Source of the DNA: Planctomycetaceae bacterium
GTDB lineage: Bacteria > Planctomycetota > Planctomycetia > Pirellulales > Pirellulaceae
NCBI GenBank assembly: GCA_002723275.1
Contig: PBNZ01000030.1
Location: 162,879 to 226,878, forward strand
DNA length: 64,000 bases
Direction: 5' to 3'
The position numbers and the translations under genes were made by a program. The notes below the pieces were generated by a model. That model worked only from the letters and a program-made list of their open reading frames with translations, was not told the DNA's origin and did not search any database. Of the stretch, positions 44,197-60,881 are shown in pieces (positions within the stretch are counted from its first letter, which is position 1; every line of letters starts with the position of its first letter).

Positions 44197-45108
44197 ATGC
44201 ACTCCTTTCCCGGCATTGTTGGGATTCGTCTGGCCTCAGATTGTCAGCATCACACCGAGTTTCTTGATTCGCGTGGCTTCCAGGTTGAGCTTCTGGAGCA
44301 AAAATCCGACGGCTCGCAGCTTGACGTAGTCGTGACTGACCGAGTGTTGCCCCAGCTTCTGGCTGCACAAGATCTCGCCGCAAGGCCCGGCATGATCACG
44401 ATTGGCGTGGAAGACGCCGGCGTCGATATTGATGTCAAACTTAGGGCCGATGTCTCATCGCGTGAAGTTGCTACGGCCGTTGAACTTGTTCTGCAAATCG
44501 TGGCGTTGAGACGTCAACGTGATGCCGAACGAGTTGAACGTGAGCGGTGGGCTGAGCTGGCGATGTTTGATGCTCTGACAGGTTTGCCGAACCGTCGAGC
44601 CTGGGAGGGATCACTCGCTAGATTCTGCGACAATGGTCAAAACTTTTGTCTTGCGTTAATTGATGTCGATTTCTTCAAGACAGCAAATGAGCGTGGCCAA
44701 GAGACGGGCGATGCTGTCCTGCGTGAAATCGCTGTTGCGATGCGAGCACGTTTGCGAGATGGCGATATTGTGGCGCGAATTGGGGGCGATGAATTTGCCA
44801 TGCTGTTGGTGGATGTCGAGCAAGATTCGGCGCAGATCATCGTCGATCGAATGCGCGGTTACATTGCGATGCATCTCTGTGATGCAGGGTTGCCATCCCT
44901 GACCGTCAGCGCCGGTTATCTGATCGTCGATCAGGATATTCCTGTCAGGAAATCGGACCTCCTCTATCGAGCGGCTTCCCGGTCTCTTGCTGTCGCGAAG
45001 CGACAGCAACGCAATTGCAGTGTTGCTTACACCTCCGCAGTTGAAGCGGAATTCTCGGCCAACCCGGAAGATCCAATTCAATCATCCGTTTCGCCCGAAA
45101 ACGGCTAA
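44197..45108 (+). CDS. Diguanylate cyclase (GGDEF domain)
   Basis: About 303 residues. The N-terminal ~120 residues look like a degenerate receiver-type domain (VVVTDRVLPQLLAAQDLAARPG). A short coiled coil (QIVALRRQRDAERVERERW) leads into a GGDEF domain with LTGLPNRRAWEG, intact active site RIGGDEFAML and the RxxD inhibitory site (RDGD) five residues upstream. It should make cyclic di-GMP from GTP and be product-inhibited. Start ATG 44197 has GGAG 9 bases upstream; ATG 44173 is the alternative. It is divergent from pyrB. Confidence 0.92.
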   Translation: MHSFPGIVGIRLASDCQHHTEFLDSRGFQVELLEQKSDGSQLDVVVTDRVLPQLLAAQDLAARPGMITIGVEDAGVDIDVKLRADVSSREVATAVELVLQIVALRRQRDAERVERERWAELAMFDALTGLPNRRAWEGSLARFCDNGQNFCLALIDVDFFKTANERGQETGDAVLREIAVAMRARLRDGDIVARIGGDEFAMLLVDVEQDSAQIIVDRMRGYIAMHLCDAGLPSLTVSAGYLIVDQDIPVRKSDLLYRAASRSLAVAKRQQRNCSVAYTSAVEAEFSANPEDPIQSSVSPENG

Positions 45109-45211
45109 TGATCGGTGGCCAATACGCCGATATTTGCTGCGAGACGAAATGAGGGGGGCCTCAGAATCGTCGCGGAATTACTTCGCTTTCAGCAAGCAAG
45201 GAGTGCTCGCA

Positions 45212-45697
45212 ATGCCCCCCCGCTCTTCGGCTACCCTATGGTTCTTTCTGGGTCTCATCTCTTTTGCCAGTGGCTGCACTAGCCTGACTCCTTCCAAATC
45301 ACTTTCCGGCTTTTGGGATGATGAAACGGCGGAGGCAGAAGTTGACTTGAGCCCTGGACCTCATTGTTGGGTTGAAATACGACCGCTTTCCGGGGAATCG
45401 GAACGAGTTCAATTGGCGGTTGTCCCCGACATGCGGATGGCACAGGTCATCGAACAAAGTAACGTTAGCTACCGGCATATGGATGCCTACATTCTGAGAG
45501 GTTCCCCTGACAATCCAAGTCAGCAAGTGAAATTAGAGATTCGCTTTGATCGCGATTCGGGAAAAGTCAAGTGGGATACCGATTATGCGATTCATCCCAA
45601 TGATCGCGTGATCATTAAAGAAGAAGCCTTCACGGTGTTGGATGAGGCTTACAACTCGCTGTTGGGACCCGTCTTGGGCCGTATTGGAAAAGACTAG
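45212..45697 (+). CDS. Hypothetical lipoprotein
   Basis: A 161-residue exported protein with AGGAG 9 bases before ATG 45212. The signal peptide ends in a lipobox (ISFASGC, C about 24). The mature part is short and beta-rich, with IHPNDRVIIKEEAF near its end, a phrase recalling SLBB/polysaccharide-export proteins but too short to claim. It lies 103 bp after the diguanylate cyclase gene on the same strand and may be cotranscribed. Its stop is 3 bp from the convergent ABC permease stop. Confidence 0.75.
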   Translation: MPPRSSATLWFFLGLISFASGCTSLTPSKSLSGFWDDETAEAEVDLSPGPHCWVEIRPLSGESERVQLAVVPDMRMAQVIEQSNVSYRHMDAYILRGSPDNPSQQVKLEIRFDRDSGKVKWDTDYAIHPNDRVIIKEEAFTVLDEAYNSLLGPVLGRIGKD

Positions 45698-51812: not shown

Positions 51813-52406
51813 ATGAGCGATTCTCAGACGTCCGGAAGTTCCGAAGCACCCCGAAGAAATTTTTTCGTGCGGGCATTCACCGCCGCTCTTGGCGCTTTCT
51901 TGGGGCTTGTACCGGCGATGTTCGGTTTGCTGTTCTTCTTTGACCCACTTTTGCGAAAAAGAAAAAAGGGATCTGCTGGGGCGGCGGCTGGCGAGAAAAA
52001 AGATGCTGAAGGATTTACACGCCTGGATGTAAAGCTGGATACCTTGCCTAGCGACGGCACCCCGATGGCCTTTAAGGTCCGTGACGACAAGTACGATGCG
52101 TGGAATCTCTATAAGGACGTGGAAGTCGGCACGGTTTGGGTGCGACGCACAGCCGATGATGACGTCGTCGCATTCAGCACGATTTGCCCGCATCTCGGAT
52201 GTGCTGTCGACTTCCGCGCTGGTCGTCAAGATTTTTTCTGTCCATGCCACACCAGTGCCTTCGATCTAGAGGGCGAACGAATGAATGACATTCCGCCTCG
52301 AGGAATGGATCGACTCGCCACTAAAGTCAATGATCAGACCGGTATCTGGGTGAAGTACCAAACCTTTTTAGCGGGCAGAAAAGAACAAATTGCCACCGAT
52401 GAATAG
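51813..52406 (+). CDS. Rieske iron-sulfur protein of a cytochrome bc complex
   Basis: About 197 residues. One membrane anchor near the N terminus (AALGAFLGLVPAMFGLLFFF) is preceded by RRNFF, a Tat-like pattern often seen on Rieske proteins. The cluster motifs are CPHLGC and CPCHTSAF, with the extra cysteines of the respiratory type that form a disulphide. It moves electrons from quinol to a cytochrome c. Start ATG 51813 is used; ATG 51807 overlaps the GGAG site too closely. The cytochrome b gene overlaps its 3' end by 8 bp. Confidence 0.93.
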   Translation: MSDSQTSGSSEAPRRNFFVRAFTAALGAFLGLVPAMFGLLFFFDPLLRKRKKGSAGAAAGEKKDAEGFTRLDVKLDTLPSDGTPMAFKVRDDKYDAWNLYKDVEVGTVWVRRTADDDVVAFSTICPHLGCAVDFRAGRQDFFCPCHTSAFDLEGERMNDIPPRGMDRLATKVNDQTGIWVKYQTFLAGRKEQIATDE

Positions 52407-54345
52407 ATTGCTCGAATGGCTTGACGATCGAACCGGCTATCGCAACCTGCTCAATGAAACGCTTTATGAGCCGATCCCTGGCGGAGCTCGTTGGCGGTAC
52501 GTCTGGGGTAGCACGCTGGTTTTTACCTTCGTGATCCAGATGATCACCGGGATATGCTTGTGGGCTGCGTACAGTCCCAGCGTTCAGACGGCGTGGGAAA
52601 GTGTCTTCTACATACAGCATGAAATGTACCTCGGCAGCGTGGTGCGAGGGATGCATCATTATGCGGCTCAGGTCATGATCGTGCTGTTGGCATTACACTT
52701 GATGCAGGTCATTATCGATGGCGCTTATCGAGCTCCGCGCGAAATCAATTTTTGGCTCGGACTCATTCTGATGCAGATCATCCTCGGGCTTTCCCTGACG
52801 GGGTATTTGCTCCCTTGGGATCAGAAGGGCTACTATGCCACCCAGGTGACGACGAAGATCGTTGGGTCTGCCCCTGTTGTTGGCCAAGAACTGCAAAACT
52901 TGGTTCAGGGAGGAAGTGAGTACGGACACCATACACTGACCCGTTTCTTTGCCATGCACGCTGGTCTGCTACCGGCTTTGCTTATCTTTTTTCTGGTGGT
53001 CCACATCTACGTCTTTCGACGACATGGGATCACTGTCAAGAACCCAAACCGTGGGCCCAGTTCGGACTTTTGGCCAGATCAAGTTTTACGAGATTCAGTG
53101 GCCTGTCTCGGCGTACTGGCCGTTGTGATGGGACTCGCCATCTTTAAGGGTGCTGCCCTGAGTGGCCCGGCGGATCCGTCAGAAGCGTACTCGGCGGCTC
53201 GGCCCGAATGGTATTTCATGTTCCTGTTTCGATTTCTAAGATTCGAAATGGTGGAACATTTTGGCCAGGCTTTCGGGGCCATTTACGTGCCCGGTGCGGT
53301 CATGCTGTTGATTGCGTTGATGCCGATCATCGCACTGGTTCGCGGTGGGCACCGATTTAATGTGATTTTTGCCTGGTCTTTGATGGGTGTCATCGTTGGG
53401 CTAACAGTTTTGTCTTTGATAGAAGACGTTCGTGATGTTGAGCATCAGGCGGCTCTTGCCGAGGCAGATCGGGATGCCCTACGCGCTGTCGAGCTTGCCT
53501 CCGGTCCCAATCGGATTCCCATCGAAGGTGCTGGAAAGCTTTTACGAGAGGATCCCTTCACGCAAGGACCTAGAATCTTCGCAAAACATTGTGCCGCGTG
53601 CCATCGATATGACGGGCACAATGGCCGGGGCAGGATGGTGATGACTGCCGATGACGATACAGGGATCGAACGTCCGACTCTGCCGACTGCGGCCGATCTC
53701 GGCAATTTTGGCGATCGTCAGTGGTGGCGGAGGATCCTCACTGACTATCGTAATCTGATGCAGCCGCTCGAGAACGCCGGTTATGATGTGGAATCATCGA
53801 TCGAATACGGCATGATCTCTTGGTTCGAAGAAAGCGTGGAAGTCTTGACTGCCGAAGCGAATCAGGCAGATGTGGATGCAATGGTTGAATACCTGGTCGC
53901 TCAAAGCGGTCGGCCTGGTCTCGAACTCAATGCAGAATTAATGGAACGAGGTGAAGAGATTCTTTCAACAGGCTCGCTCACAGAAGGTGAAATTTCGACG
54001 TGCGATGATTGTCACTCCGAAATAGGGGGAGAATTTGAGTTAGGAACTGATAATGTCGGGATTCCAGAACTCAATGGCTATGCCTCCTACACTTGGCTCA
54101 AGGCCTTCATTGATAATCCGGGAACTGAACAGTTCTATGGAGAAAACAACTGCATGCCGGCCTTTGCCGATAAACTGTCGTCCTCCGATATGGATCTGCT
54201 CGTGCGTTGGATGATTGGTGATTATGCAGCCACCGAAGTCAAGCCGTACAATTCAAAAGTCGAGTTGTTGCAGATAGAGATCGATGATTCCTCGGGCAAC
54301 GAAGTGGCGAATGCTGACGAGCAACCCGCGGCAGACTCAGAGTGA
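52399..54345 (+). CDS. Cytochrome b fused to a two-haem cytochrome c domain
   Basis: A 648-residue subunit. Residues ~20-215 are the cytochrome b N-terminal four-helix core, with haem histidines in GMHHYAAQVMIVLLALH and AMHAGLLPALLIFFLVVH. Helices ~235-345 form the C-terminal part with the Qo-site PEWY (RPEWYFMF). Residues ~365-620 are soluble and hold two c-type haem motifs, CAACH (398-402) and CDDCH (535-539). With the Rieske protein it would form a bc-type quinol oxidoreductase lacking a separate cytochrome c1. ATG 52399 is used; a TTG three codons earlier is less likely. Confidence 0.94.
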   Translation: MNRLLEWLDDRTGYRNLLNETLYEPIPGGARWRYVWGSTLVFTFVIQMITGICLWAAYSPSVQTAWESVFYIQHEMYLGSVVRGMHHYAAQVMIVLLALHLMQVIIDGAYRAPREINFWLGLILMQIILGLSLTGYLLPWDQKGYYATQVTTKIVGSAPVVGQELQNLVQGGSEYGHHTLTRFFAMHAGLLPALLIFFLVVHIYVFRRHGITVKNPNRGPSSDFWPDQVLRDSVACLGVLAVVMGLAIFKGAALSGPADPSEAYSAARPEWYFMFLFRFLRFEMVEHFGQAFGAIYVPGAVMLLIALMPIIALVRGGHRFNVIFAWSLMGVIVGLTVLSLIEDVRDVEHQAALAEADRDALRAVELASGPNRIPIEGAGKLLREDPFTQGPRIFAKHCAACHRYDGHNGRGRMVMTADDDTGIERPTLPTAADLGNFGDRQWWRRILTDYRNLMQPLENAGYDVESSIEYGMISWFEESVEVLTAEANQADVDAMVEYLVAQSGRPGLELNAELMERGEEILSTGSLTEGEISTCDDCHSEIGGEFELGTDNVGIPELNGYASYTWLKAFIDNPGTEQFYGENNCMPAFADKLSSSDMDLLVRWMIGDYAATEVKPYNSKVELLQIEIDDSSGNEVANADEQPAADSE

Positions 54346-57466: not shown

Positions 57467-58288
57467 CTATTCGGGATGGATGGCGACGAGTTCCTCGGAA
57501 ACCGCCTCAATCGCTTTTTCGTCGATGGTCTTTTGTTCTTCGGCGAACCCGATCAACAAGGCGAGGTCACAGAGTCGATTTATTTTTCTCGCATTGCCAC
57601 GCGTGATCCCGAAAATAGCATTCAACGCAGATTCGTCGAAAATGGGATTGTCTGCTCCCGCTTCATTGAGCCGGTAATTGACATAGCTGACTGTCTCGTC
57701 GAGATCGAGTGGACGAAGCAGGCATTTGACGGCAAGCCGTTCTTCCAAGCCCGGATGCCTGTCGAGCGTCGGTAAAAATGCTGGCTGACCTACAAACAGC
57801 AGCGTTAGCCCGTTGCCGTGGCTGCTTTCAAAGTTGAGTAGCAGTCGTAGCATGTCCAAGGCGGTGACGTCGGTGATAAGCTGAGCTTCGTCGACGGTGA
57901 CGACCGCGTGCCGCCCCGCTTCGCTGTTCTCAAGAAGAGCCGATTCGATTTGTCGGACTGCCGCCTCGGTTGAAAGAGGCTGTGACGTTTGTTGCTCGGG
58001 TTTCAGCTGGTGTGCCAGATAAGTGAGTAATTCATTGGTTGGCATCTGAGGGAAAACAAGATGCACGCGCGGAGTAATCGTCTCCGGCAACATTCGATAC
58101 ATCATGCGGATCAGCAAGGATTTTCCGAAGCCGGGTGCGCCAGTCAGAACGGCGCCATCACGACGGTTTTCAATCGCGTAGCGAAGCTTCAGCATTGCAG
58201 CTTGGTGCGTCTCGCTCGGGTAATAGAAGTCTTCGTTCGAGTTGTTCTCAAATGGTTTGGCGCGAAGGCCCCAGTAAGATTCGTACAT
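57467..58288 (-). CDS. ExeA/TIGR03015-like AAA ATPase
   Basis: A 273-residue ATPase with the start MYESYWGLRAKPFENN common to ExeA-type and exosortase-locus secretion ATPases. Walker A is GAPGFGKS (50-57), Walker B is VVTVDEAQLI (about 128-137) and sensor-type LLFVGQP follows. Small ATPases of this kind (TIGR03015) occur next to a tyrosine autokinase (TIGR03018) in PEP-CTERM/exosortase and exopolysaccharide loci. The same neighbour arrangement is seen here: the BY-kinase-like gene ends 11 bp upstream. Its role would be secretion or assembly of surface polymers, by analogy. Confidence 0.88.
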   Translation of the reverse strand: MYESYWGLRAKPFENNSNEDFYYPSETHQAAMLKLRYAIENRRDGAVLTGAPGFGKSLLIRMMYRMLPETITPRVHLVFPQMPTNELLTYLAHQLKPEQQTSQPLSTEAAVRQIESALLENSEAGRHAVVTVDEAQLITDVTALDMLRLLLNFESSHGNGLTLLFVGQPAFLPTLDRHPGLEERLAVKCLLRPLDLDETVSYVNYRLNEAGADNPIFDESALNAIFGITRGNARKINRLCDLALLIGFAEEQKTIDEKAIEAVSEELVAIHPE

Positions 58289-58299
58289 GATCCTATTTC

Positions 58300-59532
58300 C
58301 TACGCGGTCTTCTTGTAATGGTGTTGTGCGTTTGTCGAAAAATTGTCAATCAATTCGACGATCTGATCCGATTGTTGATGGAGATGACGCTTTAGCTTCA
58401 GAACCTCGGTGTCTTTGGTTTGTCGAGCGTCACGGACAATCAGTTGTGCGGCTAGAATGTCGGCTAGTTCGTTGTCCCAGATGGGCCGCCCTGCTGCCGC
58501 GTCGAGAAGAATGAAATCAAAGGTAGGTAAAGCTCGGTCCAGAACCGAACGTAGCTTGGCGCCGAAACTCAACTCGCCGATCTCCCAGTCATTTTCGACC
58601 ATCGGCAAGGCTGTAAATTCGTTCGCAACCGAGTAAATACAGCACTCTTCGATCGATTCTCCGCCTCCAATGTGGGTTTCCCATCCAAATTCGACACTCA
58701 GGCCCAGGCATTCCGCCAGATCAGGCCGCTGATGATCAGCATCGATGATGAGTACGCGACTTCCATGCTCTGCCAGGAATTGGGCAAGCGCGATGGCGAT
58801 CGTTGTCCTGCCCTCTCCTGGTGCCCAGCTGTGGATGTTGATGAGTTTTTGTTCACCATGGCTCACGTCCTGCAATCGAACGCGGATTTCATCCAAGGCT
58901 TCAGGGAGCTCGTCCAAAAGGCGAATGCATGGATCCGGAATGCGGAAAGCATCAACTTCCCAGGCCGGCTTCACGATGATGTTTGGAGCTGCGGCGATGT
59001 ATGGAGCTACGGCTGACTGGGCAGTTTCGCCTATGGGTTTATCGCCTGAATCTGTCGGACAACCCACGTCCGGTATGATGTTCTCACTCTCGTTTTCGTT
59101 GTGGGGGGATGTGCCGAGTGTGCCCTTCGGTGCCGAGTCGCCTGTTGTGAGCGGATCGTCGAGGAAAGTCTCTGAGCCTGATATGCCTGAGCTCGCTGTG
59201 GTTGAGTTGCTCGCCAATAAACCCGATTCGATAACGATGGCTGCGTGATCGTCTTGGCTGACGGCAGCGACAGGCTCGGACGTGAATGCAAAGTCTGTTT
59301 CCGCACGGTACCACGTCAGCTCTGCAACTGCCTCGTCTTGAAGCAATGTTTCCGCTTCCGTGGCTGGCTCAGGCTCAGAATCAATGGTCAGTAATTCTGG
59401 CTTCGCCTCGGACGCCGACGGCGCTAAATCGGTGTACAGTTCACGTTCTTTCGGTGCCTGTTTCGTAGGCTGCATTTCGGACGGATGGGGTTGGCCGAAT
59501 GCCTTGAAGAAAGCCTGATCGAGTGATGTCAT
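58300..59532 (-). CDS. BY-kinase/ParA-type ATPase with arginine in Walker A
   Basis: A 410-residue protein with a ~190-residue acidic, low-complexity N-terminal half and a C-terminal P-loop domain. Walker A reads APGEGRTT (237-244), with Arg where the BY-kinase/MinD family has the catalytic lysine. Walker A' is LIIDADHQRP (261-270) and Walker B-like DFILLDAA is present. The closest pattern is the exopolysaccharide tyrosine autokinase (CpsD/TIGR03018), but the C-terminal tyrosine cluster is reduced to one Tyr (QHHYKK). Start and stop overlap the upstream gene by 4 bases (ATGA). Confidence 0.82.
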   Translation of the reverse strand: MTSLDQAFFKAFGQPHPSEMQPTKQAPKERELYTDLAPSASEAKPELLTIDSEPEPATEAETLLQDEAVAELTWYRAETDFAFTSEPVAAVSQDDHAAIVIESGLLASNSTTASSGISGSETFLDDPLTTGDSAPKGTLGTSPHNENESENIIPDVGCPTDSGDKPIGETAQSAVAPYIAAAPNIIVKPAWEVDAFRIPDPCIRLLDELPEALDEIRVRLQDVSHGEQKLINIHSWAPGEGRTTIAIALAQFLAEHGSRVLIIDADHQRPDLAECLGLSVEFGWETHIGGGESIEECCIYSVANEFTALPMVENDWEIGELSFGAKLRSVLDRALPTFDFILLDAAAGRPIWDNELADILAAQLIVRDARQTKDTEVLKLKRHLHQQSDQIVELIDNFSTNAQHHYKKTA

Positions 59533-60662
59533 CGTCGGGACCTTCCTGTTGTCTCACCGTTATTGGCTTGAGGGGTGGCCGAGTAAGGTTGCGCGTCGCT
59601 GGTTCGAGTCTGCCGGCGGGCAATCGGCGGTATGTTGTAAATGGGATCTTTGAAAGTTGACGGATCCGTGCTCTCGTACGAATACCGAGAATTAGCACTG
59701 GGCGGATTATTGAGGGTTCCGCGGGCGGAGCCGCTTGGCGGCTGTTGGCGTGCCACATCGGGCGAATTCGAGAAAAACGCCTTGTCCGTCATCGAATTGG
59801 GCTCCGACGTTTTGGCCCGCTGGGACGGTGCCGTCAGGCTGTTCACGAGACCCACGTTTTGCCGAGTGGGGGCCGATACTGATGGCTCCGATTTCGAGCC
59901 GGCCACGGATGTTTGGACAGAACGGTTAACCATCCCGACGCCGATCTGACCTGGAGCCTCTCGGGTAAGCGTCGCTTCGACGGTGTTATCCTGAGGATTG
60001 AGCAGAGATTCGGCATCGGCGAAGTCGTCGGCCGCAGCTGGATCCGTATCCGTCGTTGCGAAATCGTCCGCGGATTCAGAGGCAATGATTGGAACCTGTT
60101 TGAATAAGGGATCCACGTTTTCGTTGTCGTTTGTCGCGACAACGGGCGAATTCGTCCTGGGGTTCTGGGTAGCGACTGAGGTCGGCGATGCTCCGCGGAG
60201 TGGCTCTTGATCGATCGGTTTGACCGTCTTGGGCACATCTTGAGAAAGCACGCCTTGATTCTGAGGCGTTTGATCCTTTTGGAAAACGGTCCAAAGAAAC
60301 ATCAGAGAGATCGCAATTCCTACGCCAGGCAGCACCCCTCGGACGGTATTGGGAAGTGCTGAGGTGAGCCTCAAGCGTTTGCGGAGTTTCGAGATGGACC
60401 AGTTTTTTTCGGTCGTTTCTCGCAGGCGACCGGCGGCAGGTCCGTCGTCACCGCTCAATTGTTCGTTCGCCACATGGTTCCAATCAGCGGCGTCAGTTGC
60501 CTCGGCGGGACTGGCCGCTGTGGCGGCCTCAATTGAGTTCAGACTTAAGTTGGAGACCGCTTGGGCATCCCAGTCAGGTATCGCTAGAATGGGACATAGA
60601 GCGGCAGTCTGTTCGTCCGTTGCCGGATAGTAACCGCGGAATCGTGGTTCAATGGACGTCAT
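59529..60662 (-). CDS. Hypothetical membrane protein, first gene of the ATPase operon
   Basis: About 377 residues from ATG 60662 (MTSIEPRFRGYYP); the frame opens 16 codons earlier. A cytoplasmic N-terminal part (~1-110) is followed by a single membrane helix (about 115-130, GVGIAISLMFLWTVF) and a long Ser/Pro/Thr/Gln-rich, probably disordered extracytoplasmic part. The one-helix layout is reminiscent of chain-length or scaffold proteins but without a Wzz domain. The next gene starts within its stop (ATGA overlap), so the three genes are tightly linked. No family recognised. Confidence 0.7.
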   Translation of the reverse strand: MTSIEPRFRGYYPATDEQTAALCPILAIPDWDAQAVSNLSLNSIEAATAASPAEATDAADWNHVANEQLSGDDGPAAGRLRETTEKNWSISKLRKRLRLTSALPNTVRGVLPGVGIAISLMFLWTVFQKDQTPQNQGVLSQDVPKTVKPIDQEPLRGASPTSVATQNPRTNSPVVATNDNENVDPLFKQVPIIASESADDFATTDTDPAAADDFADAESLLNPQDNTVEATLTREAPGQIGVGMVNRSVQTSVAGSKSEPSVSAPTRQNVGLVNSLTAPSQRAKTSEPNSMTDKAFFSNSPDVARQQPPSGSARGTLNNPPSANSRYSYESTDPSTFKDPIYNIPPIARRQTRTSDAQPYSATPQANNGETTGRSRR

Positions 60663-60881
60663 AAGGCAATTTCCAGGCTTAATGTCGAAAGTCCAGCTAG
60701 GTTTTAACAACAGACAAACATGAATTCCCAGCTTCTCTATCGACCTAGTGAGAGTCTGGTCTTGAGGGTTAGGTAAGCTTTTCGGGTTGATCGAAATGAG
60801 GCTGTCGAGGCCAAGATCTCGGGTCTAGGATGACGAAAGGTAGGAAATGAGCAACAATTCGGCGGTTTCTGCGAGAGCCTT

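Follow-up and report, generated by a model that had tools for sequence, protein, structure and literature searches.

A BY pseudokinase, an ExeA-type ATPase and a single-helix protein form an order-wide three-gene unit of planctomycetes, probably an envelope assembly module

ExeA-type AAA+ ATPases occur in type II secretion, in MSHA pili and in exosortase loci. Here we describe a three-gene unit in which an ATPase of this type stands beside a protein with the fold of a bacterial tyrosine kinase (BY-kinase) and without its catalytic residues. The unit lies on the minus strand at 57467–60662 of a 64,000-nucleotide stretch of a Planctomycetaceae bacterium genome (the window; contig PBNZ01000030.1, positions 162,879 to 226,878). 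The BY pseudokinase is a recent idea. Two pairs with polysaccharide co-polymerases (PCPs) have been tested so far according to the cited part of PMC12004946: EcpK–EpsV of Myxococcus xanthus and HfsB–HfsA of Caulobacter crescentus. For ExeA and ExeB, the passage cited from PMC4098917 states that the ATPase domain of ExeA is required for the ExeB complex. No paper on the three-gene unit was found in the open-licence literature.

The unit begins with an open reading frame (ORF) at 59529–60662 (minus strand, 377 residues) for a low-complexity, single-helix membrane protein, here TMD. The second ORF (58300–59532, minus strand, 410 residues) encodes BYK, which comprises an N-terminal peptide, a disordered linker and a BY-kinase-fold domain lacking the tyrosine cluster. 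The third (57467–58288, minus strand, 273 residues) encodes the ExeA-type AAA+ ATPase, with Walker A (GAPGFGKS) and Walker B (VDEAQ) both intact. TMD and BYK overlap by 4 bases, and 11 bases separate BYK from the ATPase gene. TMD starts at an ATG; an alternative TTG at 60710 would make it 16 residues longer. An original prediction had described three overlapping or near-abutting minus-strand genes, the first for a single-helix disordered protein, in a locus without exosortase, Wzx/Wzy or Wzz. These points held up. The ORFs lie where they were placed, hydropathy shows a single hydrophobic stretch in TMD, near residue 109 and with low-complexity sequence on either side, and no exosortase, Wzx, Wzy or Wzz gene is seen in the part of the window that was read (38.7 kb to the end).

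Like EcpK and HfsB, BYK is a stand-alone BY-kinase fold without catalytic residues or a tyrosine tail, and it is presumed to be a scaffold for a membrane partner. It differs from the EcpK–EpsV and HfsB–HfsA pairs, as the cited part of the source describes them, in its partners, its sequence and its setting. A single helix is predicted in TMD, no PCP domain was found there, and the next gene encodes an AAA+ ATPase. BYK mostly keeps the Walker A' aspartate and carries a long linker and the N-terminal peptide before the domain, and the window unit lies outside any polysaccharide locus. The XrtA pair of a Nitratidesulfovibrio vulgaris plasmid (locus L260) is alike in order and strand: a membrane (chain-length) protein, a BY-kinase-fold protein with an N-terminal peptide, and an ExeA-type ATPase. 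However, the XrtA kinase has its Walker A lysine (GEGKT) and its locus sits among exopolysaccharide genes, whereas the unit proteins fall under the XrtA model cut-offs and the unit ATPase forms a separate clade. GspA–GspB (ExeA–ExeB) also joins an ExeA-type AAA+ ATPase to a single-helix protein with an extracytoplasmic arm (presumed in TMD), and the N-terminal peptide is alike in some GspB. In the unit, a pseudokinase stands between the two instead. According to the cited passages of PMC9239104 and PMC4098917, the usual GspA ends in a membrane and peptidoglycan-binding part, while GspB carries a secretin-binding periplasmic domain; neither turned up in the unit. By PMC9239104, bacteria of the Dickeya and Klebsiella group have GspB and no gspA.

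Kinase-residue loss and linkage to an intact ATPase

The best NCBIfam matches of BYK are polysaccharide tyrosine autokinases (TIGR01007, 47.5 bits against a cut-off of 108.05). Its domain model (pLDDT 90.6) predicts a BY-kinase fold. The best fold matches are Wzc, Etk, CapAB and VpsO, with Z about 19–22 (maximum 21.9) over 193–208 aligned residues at 2.5–3.3 Å. MinD and ParA folds rank after the BY-kinases, at Z 16.8 and below, and a ParA/MinD identity for BYK was rejected because the BY-kinase folds score higher.

The Walker A lysine of active BY-kinases is replaced in BYK alignments of 30, then 80 loci. In the window, the position is held by Arg242 (PGEGRTT; codon at 58807–58809, minus strand, placed by alignment). 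Scored with one profile, the lysine is present in 0/116 readable distinct pseudokinases versus 27/29 controls, a set of other BY-kinases from planctomycetes that includes four of this genome. Its place is taken by arginine (50), cysteine (32), alanine (17), threonine (8), valine (5), serine (2), glycine (1) or isoleucine (1). Ahead of the P-loop, the EX2RX2R motif (either R or K accepted) is found in 8/110 pseudokinases versus 21/29 controls, and no match was seen by eye in the window BYK. Tyrosine is absent from the last 20 residues in 97/110 pseudokinases and occurs once in 13/110, the window BYK among them; 23/29 controls have at least three tyrosines in the last 40 residues, a span that differs from that of the pseudokinase count. 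Most of the family retains the Walker A' aspartate, and a good many members have lost the Walker B proline. By these sequence features BYK is a pseudokinase, with a BY-kinase fold and without catalytic residues or a tyrosine tail. The description of the second gene as BY-kinase-like thus stands for the fold and not for the residues of an active kinase. Two planctomycete control BY-kinases from outside the order (L115, L125) have threonine for the Walker A lysine and are possible further pseudokinases.

The BYK family forms one clade against the control BY-kinases (support 100/99), in a tree of 51 of the 118 distinct pseudokinases whose bootstrap is not quite settled and which holds some long branches. 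On this phylogeny the group is a clade of pseudokinases. The domain is fast-evolving, with identity to the window copy mostly 23–34%. The structure alignments covered 58 of 78 prepared rows and, for the ATPase, 37 of 81 possible rows.

Genomes were scanned with an ATPase alignment, and the best 80 of 236 loci were kept, 79 from planctomycete groups and one labelled 'bacterium'. All 80 have BYK upstream of the ATPase and on its strand, so the pairing is more than chance. A single-helix ORF, picked automatically, stands immediately upstream of BYK in 54/80; in several of the other 26, a contig end cuts the upstream ORF or the crude filter missed it. Gene maps of 30 loci show a recurring layout of metH on the other strand, the single-helix low-complexity protein, BYK and usually the ATPase. 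Families in which BYK scores down to 53 bits keep BYK and ATPase side by side, and the pair is adjacent in the 7 loci fetched from family f7 despite a much-diverged BYK. A protein search in 40 relatives gave a match in 38 genomes, many of these being ordinary Wzc-like kinases. An ATPase ortholog (at least 220 bits) is present in 95/146 genomes sampled in the order, which we infer to be Pirellulales, and the next scores fall to 172. Outside the order, profile A1 gives nothing above 107.4 bits among 294 genomes of the phylum; the limit to the order rests on this profile, and with true members scoring down to 53 bits, diverged members outside it are possible. Within the order, the genes stay together as a consistent unit.

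The ATPase is conserved. Residues G53, G55 and K56 are invariant in 18/18 aligned rows, Walker A and B are invariant or nearly so, and relatives are 35–80% identical with motifs intact. Its model (pLDDT 92.1) is nearest to ORC/Cdc6 and TnsC-type AAA+ folds (Z about 20–21), and a sequence search of solved structures returns only weak matches, TnsC and Cdc6 first. Its 273 residues stop at the AAA+ domain, and the GspA-type C-terminal membrane and peptidoglycan-binding part is absent. Some GspA proteins likewise lack that part, according to the cited passage of PMC9239104. The ATPase tree holds 16 unit rows, 8 proteobacterial rows (two XrtA), one transposon row and 10 planctomycete paralogs. All 16 unit rows fall on one side of a branch (97/95), with the XrtA, XrtD-type, GspA and MshM rows together opposite. 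The unit ATPase is a separate clade, outside the XrtA and GspA rows.

The original prediction had read the last two genes as the ATPase pair of exosortase loci. Profile searches place both proteins under the cut-offs: the ATPase scores 174.6 bits against TIGR03015 (XrtA-associated ATPase; cut-off 324.5) and BYK 38.7 bits against TIGR03018 (XrtA-associated tyrosine autokinase; cut-off 230.65). TIGR03015 is the best match of the window ATPase and has no above-cut-off match in this genome. The ExeA-type label is retained for the third gene; TIGR03015 membership and the XrtA grouping are not. Exosortase matches occur in 82/95 genomes with the unit versus 39/51 without it (p 0.17), so the unit is not tied to an exosortase, and 13 of the 95 unit genomes have no match, including the single-contig genomes G101, G111 and G128. 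On the strength of the cut-offs, the tree and the co-occurrence, a plain XrtA pair was rejected. The suggestion of a repurposed system is still a fair word for a real ATPase pair in a conserved trio with XrtA-like gene order, if not for an active kinase. In this genome there are five exosortase matches, all on other contigs; those at C37:131112–131876 and C39:2296–3060 have identical scores and frame lengths and are possibly an assembly duplicate.

A BYK peptide lost along with the ATPase

In most loci BYK starts with M[ST]xxDxAF[IL][KR]A[FY] or a near form. The window version, MTSLDQAFFKAFG (59494–59532, minus strand), is a putative docking site for the ATPase. We compared loci with the ExeA-type ATPase (ExeA+) and loci without it (ExeA−). 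Among 139 loci, L289 has no BYK, and removal of 8 duplicates left 130 distinct loci; L060 and L284 were set aside because they have no downstream sequence. Frames open at a contig end were excluded, so that 100/108 ExeA+ and 18/20 ExeA− loci were used. With a position-specific scoring matrix (PSSM) trained each time on one half of the ExeA+ loci, the peptide is recovered in 93/100 held-out ExeA+ loci (45/50 and 48/50) versus 4/18 ExeA− loci. A broad regular expression gives 90/100 versus 7/18. The ExeA− loci fall in 10 clades. Nine of these have a readable start: five lack the peptide, two retain it and two are mixed. The ExeA− genomes that were checked have no ATPase ortholog elsewhere, their best matches being at most 163 bits where orthologs reach at least 220. 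The WEVDxF motif served as a rough control; it is kept in 17/20 ExeA− loci, and its pattern finds 55/108 ExeA+ loci.

Outside the order, 20 fetched loci contain 21 stand-alone BY-kinases. The peptide is present in 5/6 that lie beside an ExeA-type ATPase versus 1/15 others (p 0.0017). The five are at L297 1173–1997, L300 5828–6643, L301 2782–3672, L303 5684–6466 and L313 1602–2417. The controls L111, L128 and L131, from the places of L297, L300 and L301, keep the Walker A lysine.

Similar N-termini are found in other proteins of ExeA clusters. They begin the XrtA kinase of L260 (MSRIEEALARA), the Ideonella GspB (MSYILDALRRA, L262), an ExeB-like ORF of Aeromonas (MSTLLKALRRA, L264) and an MshN-like protein of an MSHA locus (MSLLNEMLKDL, L268). 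Kinases of Rhodovulum and Jannaschia (MEKLQAALEKA and MERLRVAIDRA; L261, L266) and a Photobacterium ORF (MSIIQKAMEKT, L265) also have them, none of these three directly adjoining the ATPase. Together, seven ExeA-cluster proteins fit a pattern that was written post hoc, against a background of 52/2212 ORF starts. Because the peptide is lost along with ExeA and N-termini are alike in other ExeA-type partners, we infer that the BYK peptide docks the ATPase.

The membrane protein and the gene neighbourhood

The predicted transmembrane stretch of TMD is at 60282–60338 (minus strand; residue 109 onward, hydropathy only). A Pfam search finds no family at E 1 or better, the GspB domain included. TMDs of relatives share short motifs within an otherwise disordered chain. 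VLLRLPDL precedes the helix, and PILAIPDWD (60567–60593, minus strand) is taken by eye as the version of this genome, where it fails the strict pattern. The strict motif is present in 47/90 ExeA+ loci, 7/18 ExeA− loci (p 0.44) and 56/438 single-helix ORFs in general, and therefore shows no ExeA dependence. After the helix comes a conserved tail motif, YSYESTDPSTFKDPIYNIPP (59625–59684, minus strand, by eye), which reads YPxTDPSxYxYP in relatives; some clades have a tail of the GVARFxGxIExP kind. In the clade having this latter tail, a search with it gives one strong match per genome in 10/10 genomes (E 8e-10 or better), with 150 of 165–273 first-look candidates scored in three of them. The strong matches sit in TMD frames where compared, and the next-best match has E 0.14. 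On these results a general sorting tag was rejected.

As read from their translations, the genes flanking the unit are metH (opposite strand, from 60942) and those for an HtrA-like protease and for a HAD-like protein. A promoter and terminator scan gave a count not above that of shuffled sequences. metH stands beside the unit in 31/80 loci, many loci being cut short. Neighbour scans covered 78/79 upstream and 75/193 downstream ORFs; where metH is missing, ThiC appears in 7/78 upstream neighbours. Both were rejected as functional partners and are read as housekeeping neighbours that mark position only. The commonest downstream family is PMT_2 (8/75). Among the matches listed, single upstream neighbours match a GT2 transferase, a GDP-mannose dehydratase, an epimerase and CTP_transf_3. 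No Wzx, Wzy or Wzz is found among families matched by at least two neighbours in the matches listed (25 families listed out of 84 and out of 110).

Two further frames lie elsewhere in the window. At 52390–54345 (plus strand) a single 651-residue frame reads by eye as a cytochrome b-like region followed by cytochrome c-type regions with CxxCH. A short lipoprotein-like frame at 44987–45697 (plus strand) ends HPNDRVIIKEEA..., which we take to resemble the SLBB part of polysaccharide export proteins.

A candidate envelope assembly module and its alternatives

We propose that the unit works in the cell envelope as a module for assembly or positioning, built from a motor, a pseudokinase scaffold and a tether, and we give this reading a probability of about one half. 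The ExeA-type ATPase would be its sole intact motor. BYK would be a scaffold unable to phosphorylate, with its N-terminal peptide docked on the ATPase. Its domain, on the long flexible linker, may sit at the cytoplasmic face of the TMD tether, by analogy with CapB on CapA and EcpK on EpsV. TMD would cross the membrane and hold its long disordered arm in the periplasm, where a specific partner would bind the short conserved tail. By binding or hydrolysing ATP, the ATPase ring could collect the tether or let it go, and in this way govern how an envelope structure is assembled, much as ExeA and ExeB do for the type II secretin. As to the target, a secretin or pilus-type structure is possible at best, a glycan or polymer distinctly unlikely, and something else less likely again. 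Tentatively, and a little short of even odds, the pattern M-[STE]-x-[ILF]-x-x-A-[LMF]-x-[RK]-A may serve ExeA-type AAA+ ATPases in general as a docking tag on unrelated partners (XrtA-type BY-kinases, GspB, the MshN-like protein and pseudokinases). In Pirellulales it would couple the ATPase with a kinase-dead BY-kinase, as part of a machine for envelope assembly that depends neither on exosortase nor on known polysaccharide loci.

Several points weigh against this proposal. The peptide idea was formed post hoc, with data already seen; the N-termini of L111, L128 and L131 had been seen when their neighbours were not yet known, and one identical peptide is shared by L300 and L313. The two regular expressions differ ([RKD] became [RKDQ]), and with the first the test outside the order gives 4/6 versus 1/15 (p about 0.011). 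The peptide p-values are too small because the ExeA− loci fall in about 10 clades. Among these loci, L044 and L046 retain the full peptide, L050 and L285 pass the PSSM, and L256, L257, L280 and L281 retain a shifted or partial one. A kinase-like frame of a Sphingomonas XrtA locus (L263, first start), which was left out of the list tested, and GspB of E. coli K-12 (MFEFYIAAREQ) both fail the pattern, so that the fit is 7/9. Arginine for the Walker A lysine might still permit nucleotide binding, with the Walker A' aspartate mostly kept. The periplasmic side of TMD is assumed.

One branch of the proposal makes the unit a secretin or pilus assembly factor, a GspA/GspB-like pair with the pseudokinase as adaptor and the TMD tail bound to a secretin or another outer-membrane ring. 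With one helix and a long, presumably extracytoplasmic arm, TMD is built like GspB as the cited part of PMC9239104 describes it, and the Ideonella GspB and Aeromonas ExeB-like starts resemble the BYK peptide. A strong secretin match (E 1e-30 or better) is present in 95/95 genomes with the ATPase ortholog versus 27/51 without it. This phylogenetic profile is suggestive and comes mostly from one family: 22/24 weak-secretin genomes belong to f8, maybe by one event, and the 1e-30 line was set post hoc. Moreover, no secretin or gsp gene recurs beside the unit among the matches listed, the 273-residue ATPase lacks the GspA C-terminal part, and TMD has no match to the GspB domain. We regard this branch as doubtful. 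Somewhat less probable, and unlikely on the whole, is a stripped-down or phosphorylation-free polysaccharide co-polymerase, in which TMD would replace Wzz/PCP, the pseudokinase would guide TMD in the way that EcpK guides EpsV, and the genes for polymerisation and export would lie elsewhere in the genome. EcpK and HfsB are precedents in the cited part of PMC12004946, the gene order matches that of a real XrtA locus (chain-length protein, kinase, ATPase), and among solved folds BYK comes nearest to Wzc, Etk, CapB and VpsO. A PMT_2-like GT-C glycosyltransferase family, single-copy in 27/146 genomes, lies beside the unit (or an ExeA-less BYK) in 13 of the 27. It is the sole glycan gene seen recurring there, adjoins the unit in Blastopirellula (in Blastopirellula marina DSM 3645, locus L186, for one) among other relatives, and in this genome has its copy on another contig (C31:254010–255557). 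Poly_export matches occur in 139/146 genomes of the order. Yet the unit is present without one in G162 (92% complete) and G088 (77% complete), and in 13/95 genomes without an exosortase match, and Wzx, Wzy and Wzz are missing from the recurrent neighbour families among the matches listed. The single predicted helix of TMD, of low complexity and matching no Pfam family, also differs from PCP-2 proteins, which combine a pair of membrane helices with a large helical domain in the periplasm in the account cited from PMC12004946.

A nucleotide switch of the MinD/ParA kind, positioning something at the membrane, would have to keep binding with arginine or cysteine for the lysine. MinD and ParA folds do follow the BY-kinases in the fold search, and most sequences keep the Walker A' aspartate. 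The BY-kinase folds are clearly higher (Z up to 21.9 against 16.8 and below), and such dissimilar substitutes (R, C, A, T and V) for a lysine gone in 116/116 do not resemble a conserved nucleotide site, which makes such a switch very unlikely. The fast evolution of BYK would also suit a decaying remnant of an exopolysaccharide locus with no current function, an explanation we consider extremely improbable given ATPase identities of 35–80% with intact motifs, genes kept together over the order and short motifs conserved in disordered parts.

As an envelope assembly module, which it probably is, the order-wide three-gene unit is a new variant among BY pseudokinases. A monophyletic pseudokinase family spans the order with an AAA+ ATPase and another type of membrane partner beside it, and the BY-kinase fold therefore seems useful as a scaffold apart from phosphorylation. 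If the docking peptide is real, it would explain partner recognition by ExeA-type ATPases in type II secretion, MSHA pili and exosortase loci.

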